Source: Natrinema caseinilyticum
Lineage (GTDB): Archaea > Halobacteriota > Halobacteria > Halobacteriales > Natrialbaceae
Assembly: GCF_024227435.1 (NCBI RefSeq)
Contig: NZ_CP100445.1
Span: 868,001-932,000 of the forward strand
Direction: 5' to 3'
Length of the DNA: 64,000 nucleotides
This document shows, in pieces, positions 46,344 to 49,658 of the stretch. The stretch's first letter is position 1, and each line of letters starts with the position of its first letter. A program made the translations under genes and the position numbers. Under the pieces are notes generated by a model. The model ran no database searches and was not told the DNA's origin. It saw only the letters and a program-made list of their open reading frames with translations.

Positions 46344-47711
46344 TCAGTCGACGTCGACGCGCGTTCCGTATCCGGCCTCGCCGACCACGTCGCCGTCCGA
46401 CGCGACGACCTCGCCGCGGACCACCGTCGCGACGGCTTTCCCGGTGAACGACTCTCCCTCGAACGGCGTAACCGAATTCTTCGAGTGAAGGGTGTCGCGG
46501 TCCTCGAGGGTCCACTCTCGCGTCGGATCGACGATCGTGAAATCGGCGTCGGTGCCGACCTGCAGCGACCCCTTCTGCGGGTACATCCCCCAGACCTGGG
46601 CCGGCCGGGTCGAGTGGCGGCGGACCCACTCCTCGAGCGTGAGTCGGCCCCGATCGACGAACGTGAGCATCGCCGGCACCTCCGTCTCGAGGCCGACGAA
46701 TCCCGAGATCGCGTTCCACGTGTTTCCGAACGGATCGTCGACCAGTTTCTCCTCGGGGGTGTGGGGCGCGTGGTCGGTGGCGATGCAGTCGATCGCGCCG
46801 CCGTCGACGCCGACGGACCAGAGTTCGTCCCGCTCGGCAGCGTCTCGGATGGGTGGCTGAACCCGTGCGACGTTGCCCTTCTCGCGCACGACGTCCTCGG
46901 TGAACCAGAGGTAGTGCGGGGTCGTCTCCGCAGTCACGTCGACGCCGCGGTCCTTTCCGCGGGCGACGGCCTCGGCAGCCGACCCCGACGAGACGTGGAA
47001 CATGTGAATCTTCGTTCCGGTCTCTTCGGCGAAAGTGATCATTCGCTCCACGGCCTCTCGCTCGGCGATCACGGGCCGCGAGTGTGAGTGGTCGATGGGA
47101 TCGGTCCGACCCTCCTCTTTGAACCTCGCCGTGTAGTAGTCGATGATCTCGCCGTTTTCTTCGTGGAACCCGAGCCGTTTCCCGGTCTCGCGGATTCGTT
47201 TCATCGCCTCGAGGATTTCGCCGTCGTTCGGCGGCGGAACGTCGCCGACGGTCGAGCCCAGGAAGATCTTGTACCCGATCGCGCCGGCCTCGTCGATCGC
47301 CGGGATCAGGTCCAGGTTTTCGGATGTCACGACCGCGTAGCTCTGGAAATCGACGTGCGCCGACGCCTCGCCGCGCTCGAACTTCAACTCGAGGTGCTCC
47401 GGTCGGTCGATGACCGGGTCGGTGTTCGGCATTCCGACGACGGTCGTCACGCCGCCTGCGGCGGCCGCTCTCGTCGCGGACTCCCAGTCCTCCTTGTACT
47501 CGAGTCCGGGCTCGCGGTTGTGGATGTGGCAGTCGACGATTCCAGGCACGAGGACGGTGCCCTCGCCGTCGAAGACGCGGTCCGCGTCGGGGAGCCGGTC
47601 GCTCCGGCCGACTGCGACGATGGTTCCGTCTTCGACGGCGACGCCCGCGTCGGGAGTCCGGCCCGCGGGCGTGACGACGGTACAGTTGCGCACGACGAGG
47701 TCGACGGTCAT
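46344..47711 (-). CDS. pyrC: dihydroorotase (amidohydrolase family)
   Basis: 455 residues. The metal site HIHNREPGLEYKEDW near 63 (HxH, then Arg and Glu typical of dihydroorotase), the carboxylated Lys in GYKIFLGST near 148, His in GFHEENGE and MFHVSSG, and the final Asp in CIATDHAPHTPEEK near 310. It closes carbamoyl aspartate to dihydroorotate. The family also holds allantoinases and hydantoinases, but the REPG and ATDHAPH motifs favour dihydroorotase. ATG at 47711 is 4 bases before the strong upstream gap. Confidence 0.78.
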   Translation of the reverse strand: MTVDLVVRNCTVVTPAGRTPDAGVAVEDGTIVAVGRSDRLPDADRVFDGEGTVLVPGIVDCHIHNREPGLEYKEDWESATRAAAAGGVTTVVGMPNTDPVIDRPEHLELKFERGEASAHVDFQSYAVVTSENLDLIPAIDEAGAIGYKIFLGSTVGDVPPPNDGEILEAMKRIRETGKRLGFHEENGEIIDYYTARFKEEGRTDPIDHSHSRPVIAEREAVERMITFAEETGTKIHMFHVSSGSAAEAVARGKDRGVDVTAETTPHYLWFTEDVVREKGNVARVQPPIRDAAERDELWSVGVDGGAIDCIATDHAPHTPEEKLVDDPFGNTWNAISGFVGLETEVPAMLTFVDRGRLTLEEWVRRHSTRPAQVWGMYPQKGSLQVGTDADFTIVDPTREWTLEDRDTLHSKNSVTPFEGESFTGKAVATVVRGEVVASDGDVVGEAGYGTRVDVD

Positions 47712-47946
47712 TGCCGTGGAGTTGCCGAGGGCCGCGCATATAGCTTCCCCAAGCGGGCCAGCCCCTCGAGACTCTACTCACCGCTCGCCTCTCGTCCAAC
47801 ACGTGATATGCCCGCCGCGCGGAGTGACGAGCGGCCAGCACCGTCGGTCCCGACGGCTCGGACTCCGATCGACTGTCGAGGCGTAAATTTGCGCCTCGAG
47901 CGCGCAGCTCCCTATCGTGCCTGAACCGCCGCAGTCCCAATCCGGG

Positions 47947-48171
47947 TTACTCCTCTTCTTGTTGCCTTCGCCTGCGCTGTGCGATGATCTGATCGGGCGT
48001 CACCGAACAGCCACAGGGGCCAACCGTGCCGGTGTCGGGGCCCCTTGTGGTGATCGTCGCGACCAGTCGGCCACAGCACGGACACTCGGGGAGCGACGAG
48101 GACCGCTCCTCGGTCGAATGCCCCTCGTCATCCGAGTCCTGCTCGTCATCTGCTCGCCCATCGTCACTCAT
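47947..48171 (-). CDS. small acidic zinc-finger protein
   Basis: 74 residues. A very acidic N-terminal half (DDGRADDEQDSDDEGHS) is followed by a zinc knuckle CPCCGRLVATITTRG and GPCGCS, then an Arg/Gln-rich tail. Small haloarchaeal zinc proteins of this type are mostly unassigned. ATG at 48171 used; an ATG at 48183 adds four residues. Confidence 0.6.
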   Translation of the reverse strand: MSDDGRADDEQDSDDEGHSTEERSSSLPECPCCGRLVATITTRGPDTGTVGPCGCSVTPDQIIAQRRRRQQEEE

Positions 48172-48249
48172 GACGGCCTCCATCCGCGGTCAGATTCGAA
48201 TTCGGAAACAGCAGCGTGGCTGCTCGTACCGGGCGATATCGTGGTCGTG

Positions 48250-48267
48250 CGGGATGTTTATATCCCG
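48250..48267 (+). promoter_or_regulatory. promoter with inverted repeat before the candidate RNA
   Basis: TATA element TTTATAT (48257-48263) lies inside the inverted repeat CGGGAT-N6-ATCCCG (48250-48255 and 48262-48267). Transcription would start near 48286, where the structured segment begins. The repeat could be an operator. Confidence 0.45.
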
Positions 48268-48285
48268 TTGGAATGAACGTAGGCA

Positions 48286-48385
48286 TGGCTCCAGAACCCT
48301 CGCGGGTTTGGAAGCCAGTCTCGGGTGTCCTAGCACCCGGGACGTTTGCGAATCGTCCCATTTCTCGAGACCGGCTTCCGTCTGA
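48286..48385 (+). ncRNA. candidate structured non-coding RNA, function unknown
   Basis: The plus strand folds, by hand, into four helices. Hairpin 1 is 48291-48311 (CCAGAACCC against GGGTTTGG, one bulge, loop TCGC). A long helix pairs 48310-48323 with 48366-48379 (14 positions, one A-C mismatch). Inside it hairpin 2 (48323-48338, GGGTG/CACCC, loop TCCTAG) and hairpin 3 (48339-48359, GGGACG/CGTCCC, loop TTTGCGAAT) form a three-way junction. A TATA element sits 26 bases upstream. No reading frame of note covers it. It does not match a tRNA, SRP RNA, RNase P, or a box C/D or H/ACA RNA that I can recognise; a 5' regulatory leader of the following gene is also possible. Confidence 0.45.
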
Positions 48386-48432
48386 ACCGTTGACGTATTG
48401 CGGCTTATATCTATTGTTAATTCGGAGAAATT

Positions 48433-48669
48433 ATGGTCGGCTCCGACGAACAGAAGCCGTCAGCGGTCGCGAGCGACGGGCAAACCGGCCCCGACGGGCC
48501 ACGAAGCGAGCGGTCGGCGCAACGGCGAATCGATGGATTCTGGCGGGGGTGTCGGCACCCTCGAGAAGCCGCTCTCGACCGTAAGCCCCGCCTTCCGGGG
48601 TCTCAGACACCGAATACGCGGGGGTACGAGTCGGATACTAAACAGCGAGGTGCTGGTAGCACGCGGTAA
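48433..48669 (+). CDS. possible small protein coupled to the epimerase gene
   Basis: 78 residues from an ATG 26 bases after a TATA-like CTTATATC (48404-48411). Its TAA overlaps the epimerase ATG by one base (TAATG). These two facts argue for translation, but the protein is basic and Arg-rich and its second half has poor codon use for this genome. It may be chance or a decayed gene. No family recognised. Confidence 0.3.
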   Translation: MVGSDEQKPSAVASDGQTGPDGPRSERSAQRRIDGFWRGCRHPREAALDRKPRLPGSQTPNTRGYESDTKQRGAGSTR

Positions 48670-49658
48670 TGGACACGCCAGTGATCAGCGACAGAACGAT
48701 ACTCGTGACCGGCGGTGCCGGTTTCATCGGGAGCCACCTCGTCGACGCCCTGGCCCCGCACAACGAGGTCAGGGTCCTCGATACGTTCGCGACCGGCGAC
48801 CGGGCCTACCTCCCCGACGACGTGACGGTGATCGAAGGCGACATCGGCGATCCGATCGCCCTCCAGCGGGCCGCCCGCGGCGTCGACCTGATCTTCCACC
48901 ACGCCGCGCTGGTCAGCGTCTCCCAGAGCGTCGACGCGCCGCGACGGAGCAATCGCACGAACCTCGAGGCGAGCCTCCTCGTCCTCGAGCAAGCCCGTCA
49001 GGAGGACGCGCGGGTCGTCGTCGCCTCGAGCGCGGCCGTCTACGGCCACCCGGAGGAGTTACCGGTCTCGGAGTCGGCATCGACGAATCCGACGTCGCCG
49101 TACGGGATCCAGAAACTCGCACTCGACCAGTACACACGCCGCTACGAGGAACTCTACGGGCTCCCGACCGTGGCGCTGCGGTACTTCAACGTCTACGGTC
49201 CGCGCCAGCAGGGGCCGTATAGCGGCGTCATCTCGACGTTCCTCGAACAGGCGCGGGCCGGCGAACCGATCACCATCGAGGGGGACGGCCAGCAGAGCCG
49301 TGACTTCGTTCACGTCAGCGACGTCGTCCGGGCAAACCTTCGAGCGGCGACGGTCGACGCGGTAGGCGAAGCGTACAACGTCGGGACAGGACAGCGAACG
49401 ACGGTCCAGGAGCTCGCCGAGACGATTCGAGACGCGACCGGGTCGTCGTCGCCGATCGTACACCGTGATCCCCGAGCCGGCGACATCAGACATAGCGGGG
49501 CGGATACCGCGAAAGCGACTCGGACGCTCGGATTCGAGGCTCGGATCGGTCTCGAGTCGGGAATCCGAGCGCTGGTCGGGGCCGACTCGGCGGCTTCGAC
49601 CGGGGACGACGTGGGTCCGCCACCGGAAACGAACTCCGAAAGCGGAACCTACAGCTGA
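48669..49658 (+). CDS. NAD-dependent nucleotide-sugar epimerase/dehydratase
   Basis: 329 residues of the extended short-chain dehydrogenase type. ILVTGGAGFIGSHLVDAL at 11-28 is the NAD site; HHAALVSVSQSV, SSAAVYG (catalytic Ser region), and YGIQKLALDQY with the YxxxK pair near 145 follow; then RYFNVYGPRQ and GDGQQSRDFVHVSDV of UDP-sugar 4-epimerase-like enzymes. It likely makes a UDP- or dTDP-sugar for surface glycans. The candidate RNA lies upstream. The C-terminus is an acidic tail. Confidence 0.85.
   Translation: MDTPVISDRTILVTGGAGFIGSHLVDALAPHNEVRVLDTFATGDRAYLPDDVTVIEGDIGDPIALQRAARGVDLIFHHAALVSVSQSVDAPRRSNRTNLEASLLVLEQARQEDARVVVASSAAVYGHPEELPVSESASTNPTSPYGIQKLALDQYTRRYEELYGLPTVALRYFNVYGPRQQGPYSGVISTFLEQARAGEPITIEGDGQQSRDFVHVSDVVRANLRAATVDAVGEAYNVGTGQRTTVQELAETIRDATGSSSPIVHRDPRAGDIRHSGADTAKATRTLGFEARIGLESGIRALVGADSAASTGDDVGPPPETNSESGTYS

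Follow-up and report, generated by a model that had tools for sequence, protein, structure and literature searches.

A probable family of cis-acting leader RNAs ahead of small zinc-protein operons in Halobacteria

In Natrinema a dihydroorotase-like gene and an epimerase gene lie back to back, separated by 186-190 bp in three genomes free of the cassette described here and by 957 bp in the window, by which we mean the whole 64,000-nt stretch of Natrinema caseinilyticum DNA that was analysed (contig NZ_CP100445.1, positions 868,001 to 932,000). Between these two genes the window holds a TATA region, a structured RNA element and two small open reading frames, ORF1 and ORF2, which we assign to the minus strand (Table 1). 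Over Natrinema, the gap found at 46344-49658 of the window is a hot spot of small variable inserts, ranging from 186 to over 1000 bp and differing in their contents.

Table 1. Features of the element and of the operon downstream of it (positions in the window).
Feature	Position	Strand	Basis
TATA region of operon promoter, caatagatataag as read on minus	48404..48416	-	family consensus CAGTAGATATAAGT
P1 5' strand (A), GGAAGCCGGTCTC	48367..48379	-	fold and covariation
P2 hairpin, GGGACG...CGTCCC, conserved AAA in loop	48339..48359	-	fold and covariation
P3 hairpin, GGGTG-CTAGGA-CACCC, the family's most conserved helix	48323..48338	-	covariation
P1 3' strand; its GGCTTCC (B, 48310-48316) is able to pair with A or C	48310..48322	-	covariation
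P4 hairpin, AACCC-GCGA-GGGTT, between P1 and start codon	48295..48308	-	strong compensatory changes
Segment C (GGAGCC), abutting the ORF1 start codon, complementary to B	48287..48292	-	B:C co-variation and fold of this copy's B-P4-C hairpin
ORF1, basic leader peptide, 40 aa, MPTFIPTGYKHPARPRYRPVRAATLLFPNSNLTADGGRHE	48164..48286	-	frame kept; pN/pS
P6 palindrome/hairpin within ORF1 codons, CGGGATATAAACATCCCG	48250..48267	-	compensatory non-synonymous changes; slow codons 1-13
ORF2, acidic zinc-finger micro-protein, MSDDGRADDEQ...CPCCGRLVATITTRGPDTGTVGPCGC...	47947..48171	-	pN/pS 0.38

A first-pass annotation of this region, made from the letters alone, had described a structured RNA with its own promoter, and the fold it drew is there: the 14-position helix of 48310-48323 with 48366-48379, with its one mismatch, was found letter for letter, as were the two hairpins within this helix and the third one outside it. 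On neither strand did any of 200 dinucleotide shuffles fold as well (z -3.65 for the plus strand and -5.23 for the minus). The RNA, its pairing and the existence of a promoter stand, whereas the strand, the promoter site and the gene had been given wrongly. In RNA, G-U pairs are tolerated, and the opposite strand then reads A-C. The sole plus-strand "mismatch" of the long helix is such an A-C, i.e. a G-U on the minus strand, and in relatives the outer helix, read on the minus strand, varies between C-G and U-G, A-U and G-U, and G-C and G-U, all of which give mismatches on the plus strand; two outer-helix positions alone account for 24 U-G and 25 G-U cells in 91 copies. When a covariance model of the family was built from 30 copies, the window copy scored 138.7 bits on the minus strand and 17.1 on the plus. 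Because of this asymmetry between G-U and A-C, together with the model scores and the position of the promoter, the comparison places the RNA on the minus strand, at about 48383-48293.

Pairing is conserved among relatives, and compensatory double changes are far more frequent than in shuffled alignments. Among the 91 Natrialbaceae copies, 91.3% of pair cells are standard; double changes number 183, where shuffles give 43, and the covariation score of 0.196 compares with 0.064 at most for slid controls. The fitting of this alignment to the model inflates pairing and favours the unslid arrangement over the slid ones, an effect of which the wobble asymmetry is independent. Across the class, 48 copies gave 92.7% standard pairs, 143 double changes against 47.5, and a score of 0.439 against no more than 0.115 in slid controls. 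P3 is invariant but for one cell within the Natrialbaceae copies and covaries outside that family, where GGGTG, GCGTG, GAGTG and AGGTG occur with matching partners around a GTG/CAC core that is kept. A conserved aptamer-like fold with covariation, as one would look for in a riboswitch, is thus present. Two orientations of the P3 loop are found, one CTGGAA-like and the other TTCCAG-like, as though inversion of the top of the hairpin had happened many times (compare copies L300 and L322, or L004 and L010), and sister copies of one genome can differ in this respect.

No known RNA family had been recognised in the first pass, and the covariance search agrees: with Rfam 15 at the gathering cut-off there were no matches in the window or in the loci of 20 relatives, the best sub-threshold match on the element reaching 16.1 bits against a cut-off of 50. 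A tRNA-like gene or a known RNA family was accordingly rejected. We found no description of this leader family in Rfam 15 or in limited searches of the open-access literature, a body of text that misses many subscription papers.

The minus-strand TATA occupies -30 to -27 relative to the first base of P1, each of its bases being conserved in about 90% of 90 copies, in flanks that are otherwise poorly conserved. Since this distance is fixed, the 5' end of the RNA would be expected within a few bases of P1, at about 48380-48383. As for the TATA element that had been placed on the plus strand inside an 18-base inverted repeat, the repeat exists (cgggatgtttatatcccg, 48250-48267), while its role as a promoter was not confirmed. 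The plus-strand "TATA" is the antisense of early ORF1 codons (GGA TAT AAA CAT CCC); it reads TTTATAT, TTTATGT, CTTTTTG or TTTAAGC in different members of the family and is lost in many relatives, and for this lack of conservation P6 was rejected as a plus-strand promoter. Substitutions in P6 are both compensatory and amino-acid-changing, as in GGA..CCC to AGA..CTC. An alternative pairing of P6 with P1b or P2 was seen by eye in single lineages and, being inconsistent over the family, was dropped.

Judged by its strand and by what follows it, the RNA is the 5' leader of a two-gene minus-strand operon composed of ORF1 and the zinc-finger gene ORF2. It has the position of a riboswitch, on the coding strand, 5' of the zinc-finger gene and with a TATA at fixed distance. 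The earlier statement that the segment codes for nothing clear was incomplete, as a leader ORF begins just 3' of the fold, a median of 23 nt after the end of P1 and with P4 in between. Across copies ORF1 has about 39 codons and is basic. A zinc-finger ORF, recognised by its pattern (C..C with C.C or C..C), follows in 155 of 179 copies, the other 24 having no recognisable one, and in 134 of these 155 the first stop in the ORF1 frame lies beside the zinc-finger start, the other two frames giving 4 and 0. That stop falls 4 nt past the zinc-finger start in 77 copies, 8 nt in 41 and 11 nt in 10; the window copy has an overlap of 8 nt (ATGAGTGA) with the stop ending at 48164, and its ORF2 has an additional in-frame ATG at 48183. 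Ahead of the zinc-finger start, 122 of the 134 have a Shine-Dalgarno-like 4-mer (a raw count).

The two frames differ in how they evolve. In 27 pairs of copies, which are not independent of each other, ORF2 has a pN/pS of 0.38, i.e. purifying selection, whereas ORF1 past codon 13 has 0.84, which is not clearly purifying. Codons 1-13 of ORF1 are slow at silent and non-silent sites alike in the same non-independent pairs (pS 0.064), and slow synonymous sites imply that the constraint on the ORF1 start region acts at the level of RNA or DNA and not of protein. ORF1 thus has the look of a leader peptide for which being translated, and where translation stops, count for more than the sequence itself; the case for an ordinary conserved protein is weakened, as amino-acid changes in it are almost as rapid as silent ones even though the frame is kept. 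No run of codons specific for one amino acid was noticed in ORF1 by eye. The ORF2 families reached no Pfam or NCBIfam cut-off.

By DNA search the element is present in 27 of 29 Natrinema genomes, often in many copies per genome. There are seven in the genome of the window and 26, 28, 23 and 34 in four other genomes, the last of which, also of the Natrialbaceae, resembles Halovivax, judged by its copies; copies also occur on large plasmids. A core model of P1, P2 and P3 matched 128 of 391 genomes of class Halobacteria, in 54 of 86 sampled genera (E <= 1e-4), and gave no match outside the class within the sample taken of the phylum. About half of the matching genomes lie outside the Natrialbaceae, and these mostly have one to four weaker matches each. 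In the loci tested there, the junction is followed directly by the start codon of another small protein, mostly a Cys-rich one: SWIM-like zinc fingers, other CxxC proteins and one family without cysteines, the last of which means that the RNA is not strictly tied to zinc proteins.

A cassette near the site seen in the window was found by pattern in six of the 29 Natrinema genomes, and the pattern failed to pick up a diverged copy in a seventh (G004). This comparison of sites indicates gain and loss of the cassette in the interval that separates the dihydroorotase-like gene from the epimerase, and because the cassette is absent beside the epimerase in most Natrinema genomes, the epimerase is an incidental neighbour.

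Segment C repeats the 5' strand of P1 and covaries with its 3' strand. In copies outside the Natrialbaceae, the bases before the start codon (GAAGACC, GAACCC, GAAGCC) fit each copy's own P1 3' strand (GGTCTTC, GGGTTC, GGCTTC), and in several of them a B base that is mismatched in P1 pairs with C. Over 22 distinct outer copies, a set defined by the model and the nearest ATG rather than by mapped start codons, the B:C duplex has a mean of -8.5 kcal/mol as against -5.6 with permuted partners, and none of 20,000 permutations was as good; since A and C are alike and both pair with B, this test cannot tell which helix forms. Of 98 distinct Natrialbaceae copies, 74 have a B:C run of at least five bases, where shuffling C leaves about 17, and the remaining 24 have runs of only three or four bases. 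In the window copy, a clean hairpin of 11 pairs (-18.1 kcal/mol) is formed by B, P4 and C immediately ahead of the start codon. The junction from A to B, at -40.8 kcal/mol, is far more stable, and a switch would therefore need an input. The covariation suggests two mutually exclusive helices, A:B and B:C.

The reading that we favour, with a probability of roughly 0.68, is that of a 5' leader RNA of a minus-strand two-gene operon that acts in cis on translation by means of alternative helices. Transcription would start a few bases before P1, and the first ~75 nt would fold into the three-way junction of P1, P2 and P3, and ORF1, the leader ORF of some 40 codons, would begin about 23 nt beyond it. 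As the ORF1 stop overlaps the zinc-finger start, with a Shine-Dalgarno-like signal, ribosomes translating ORF1 would be delivered to that start by termination-reinitiation coupling. When the 3' strand of P1 is held in the junction, the start region would be free, and when it pairs instead with the start region, in the B-P4-C hairpin, the start would be masked. The balance would shift if something bound the junction, or if the 5' end of the RNA were masked or lost; on the most economical reading, P1 as the default leaves the start region free, and loss or capture of its 5' strand leads to the masking hairpin. Strand, promoter position, fold, ORF coupling, selection on ORF2 and the complementarity of both helices come from sequence comparison, while the two states in cells, the control of translation and which state is "on" are what we infer from these. 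Such leaders would probably constitute a new, switch-like family of cis-acting translational RNAs, one that is undescribed, haloarchaeal and in control of the translation of small zinc-protein operons.

One may also consider a stable trans-acting RNA, in which the leader is cut or terminated before ORF1 and then either works as an sRNA or joins the zinc-finger protein as its RNA partner (an RNP, or an RNA-protein toxin-antitoxin pair), the operon being its gene. The high number of copies per genome, divergent in sequence, would suit such a role, as would the compact fold at the extreme 5' end, an invariance of the P3 sequence beyond what pairing alone needs, and the small zinc-binding protein that is usually adjacent. 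A separate RNA, however, would need neither the conservation that continues beyond the junction to take in the start codon and the first part of ORF1 nor the co-variation of segment C with P1, and we regard this explanation as unlikely.

Somewhat less likely again is antisense control of the kind known from T1 and T(ant) of PhiH1, in which the TATA palindrome within ORF1 would be a convergent promoter whose antisense RNA pairs with the leader and either triggers its cleavage or opens P1. There is a mapped precedent, as the start of PhiH1 T1 is 151 nt ahead of its first ORF and that of T(ant) is on the opposite strand right beside this ORF (PMC4284463), and a plus-strand TTTATAT is found in the window copy and in about a third of copies. 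Nevertheless, many copies have lost the plus-strand TATA while mostly keeping the palindrome, and the PhiH1 leaders have no significant match to the covariance models.

The cis-acting leader that we prefer also has features in common with PhiH1. The early lytic transcripts T1-T4 and T(ant) of PhiH1 (Stolt and Zillig) are likewise halophilic, with early small genes and structured leaders of about 150-170 nt, and T1 has a convergent antisense start mapped beside its first ORF. The T4 leader has a three-way junction with a GTG-CTGGTAT-CAC hairpin, and its mapped start equals the first base of P1, but its covariance match is not significant (12.1 bits and E 0.39 with model R2, E 1.7 with R3), which does not make it a member. 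Folded by itself (L332:9557-9735, z -6.3), the T4 leader forms a three-way junction from the mapped first base and then a second long hairpin. Two pleolipoviruses encode relatives of one of the outer downstream proteins (42% and 52% identity), and both have, by eye, a junction-like leader and a palindrome in the early codons; a free-energy fold backs the junction in Humcor2 and not in HRPV9, where a PhiH1-like repressor gene and an integrase lie alongside. Their leaders were not significant with the models either (E 0.04 and 0.24 with R2, 1.6 and 1.4 with R3). Searches by pattern in viral contigs gave 0 and 1 matches and those by DNA similarity in phages none; viral relatives were found only through the protein. 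As no viral leader reaches significance with these models, the connection to viruses is a lead and does not amount to family membership.

A feature of the DNA itself, such as a cruciform, a transposon end or protein-binding palindromes belonging to a mobile cassette, would account for presence and absence between the same two genes within one genus and for dispersed copies, plasmids included. One would then not expect G-U to be accepted on one strand only, or the promoter distance to be fixed, and when occupied and empty sites, whose flanks have diverged enough to conceal such features, were compared by eye, no shared ends, terminal repeats or target duplications were recognised; this explanation is very improbable. 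We give least credence to the first-pass proposal that the plus strand encodes an sRNA or a cis-acting leader for the epimerase. The plus strand does fold well (z -3.65) and has a TATA-like TTTATAT about 25 nt before 48285, but the wobble pairs, the model scores, the loss of that TATA and the empty sites led us to reject this reading; the epimerase is read from the opposite strand, and in most of the genus it adjoins the dihydroorotase-like gene with no element between them.

Returning to the cis-acting leader, it can be set beside three further kinds of known system. Start-masking riboswitches, such as the three-way-junction purine type, likewise have a 5'-terminal junction RNA before a start codon with a small coding unit downstream, and in them the 3' strand of P1 can pair with the start region instead, as is proposed for the present leader. 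The haloarchaeal leader differs in that it has no Rfam match, in that its most conserved bases lie in helices, above all P3, and in that it occurs in up to 34 copies per genome with a coupled leader ORF downstream. According to a 2021 paper, the fluoride riboswitch of Thermococcus was at that date the only natural archaeal riboswitch to have been experimentally determined (PMC8241225). Haloarchaeal zinc-finger micro-proteins (HVO_0758, Brz and others), as their abstracts describe them, are very small and have two CPxCG-type motifs. ORF2 resembles them in being small and under purifying selection and in having two Cys pairs (155 of 179 copies), and differs in that its families fall below Pfam and NCBIfam cut-offs; no leader RNA of this kind appeared in those abstracts. 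Bacterial leader peptides with an overlapping stop and start (ATGA or ATGnnTAG) share the short, weakly constrained first ORF whose stop overlaps the next start, whereas here the system is archaeal, an RNA junction lies upstream of the leader ORF, and ORF1 is basic and has conserved early codons.

More tentatively, one might see in these leaders a native haloarchaeal class of RNA switch, whose 5'-terminal junction would sense a metal (e.g. zinc), a protein or the encoded zinc protein itself, whose mutually exclusive helices would free or hide the start, and which would be common to cellular genes, plasmids and viruses of Halobacteria, with more than 30 operons in some genomes; we hold this wider proposal to be possible, with the odds somewhat against it. 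Haloarchaea have many unexplained zinc micro-proteins, and a leader RNA backed by covariation and found in 54 of 86 sampled halobacterial genera offers a handle both on these and on archaeal riboswitches. The family predicts which genes would belong to the regulon, where transcripts would start and which base changes would turn translation up or down, and it suggests a link between cellular cassettes and early halovirus genes.

Individual copies depart from the common arrangement in several ways. Five copies from Halostagnicola (L161, L162, L172, L183 and L184) have a longer ORF2, and in L172, the only one of them tested, a match to HalOD1 (Pfam PF18545, 25.0 bits, just under the cut-off) lies ahead of the zinc-finger motif. 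In L137, L163, L187, L189, L207 and L210, which are mostly from Halopiger and have an ORF1 of the form MIAYPLPRHKRLAR..., the RNA and ORF1 are present with no recognisable zinc-finger ORF. An early TAA at a conserved CAA codon cuts ORF1 short in L104, probably a decaying copy, and in L121, another copy in the genome of the window (C1:2263900), ORF1 is in frame with the zinc-finger domain, giving one fused ORF of 173 aa.
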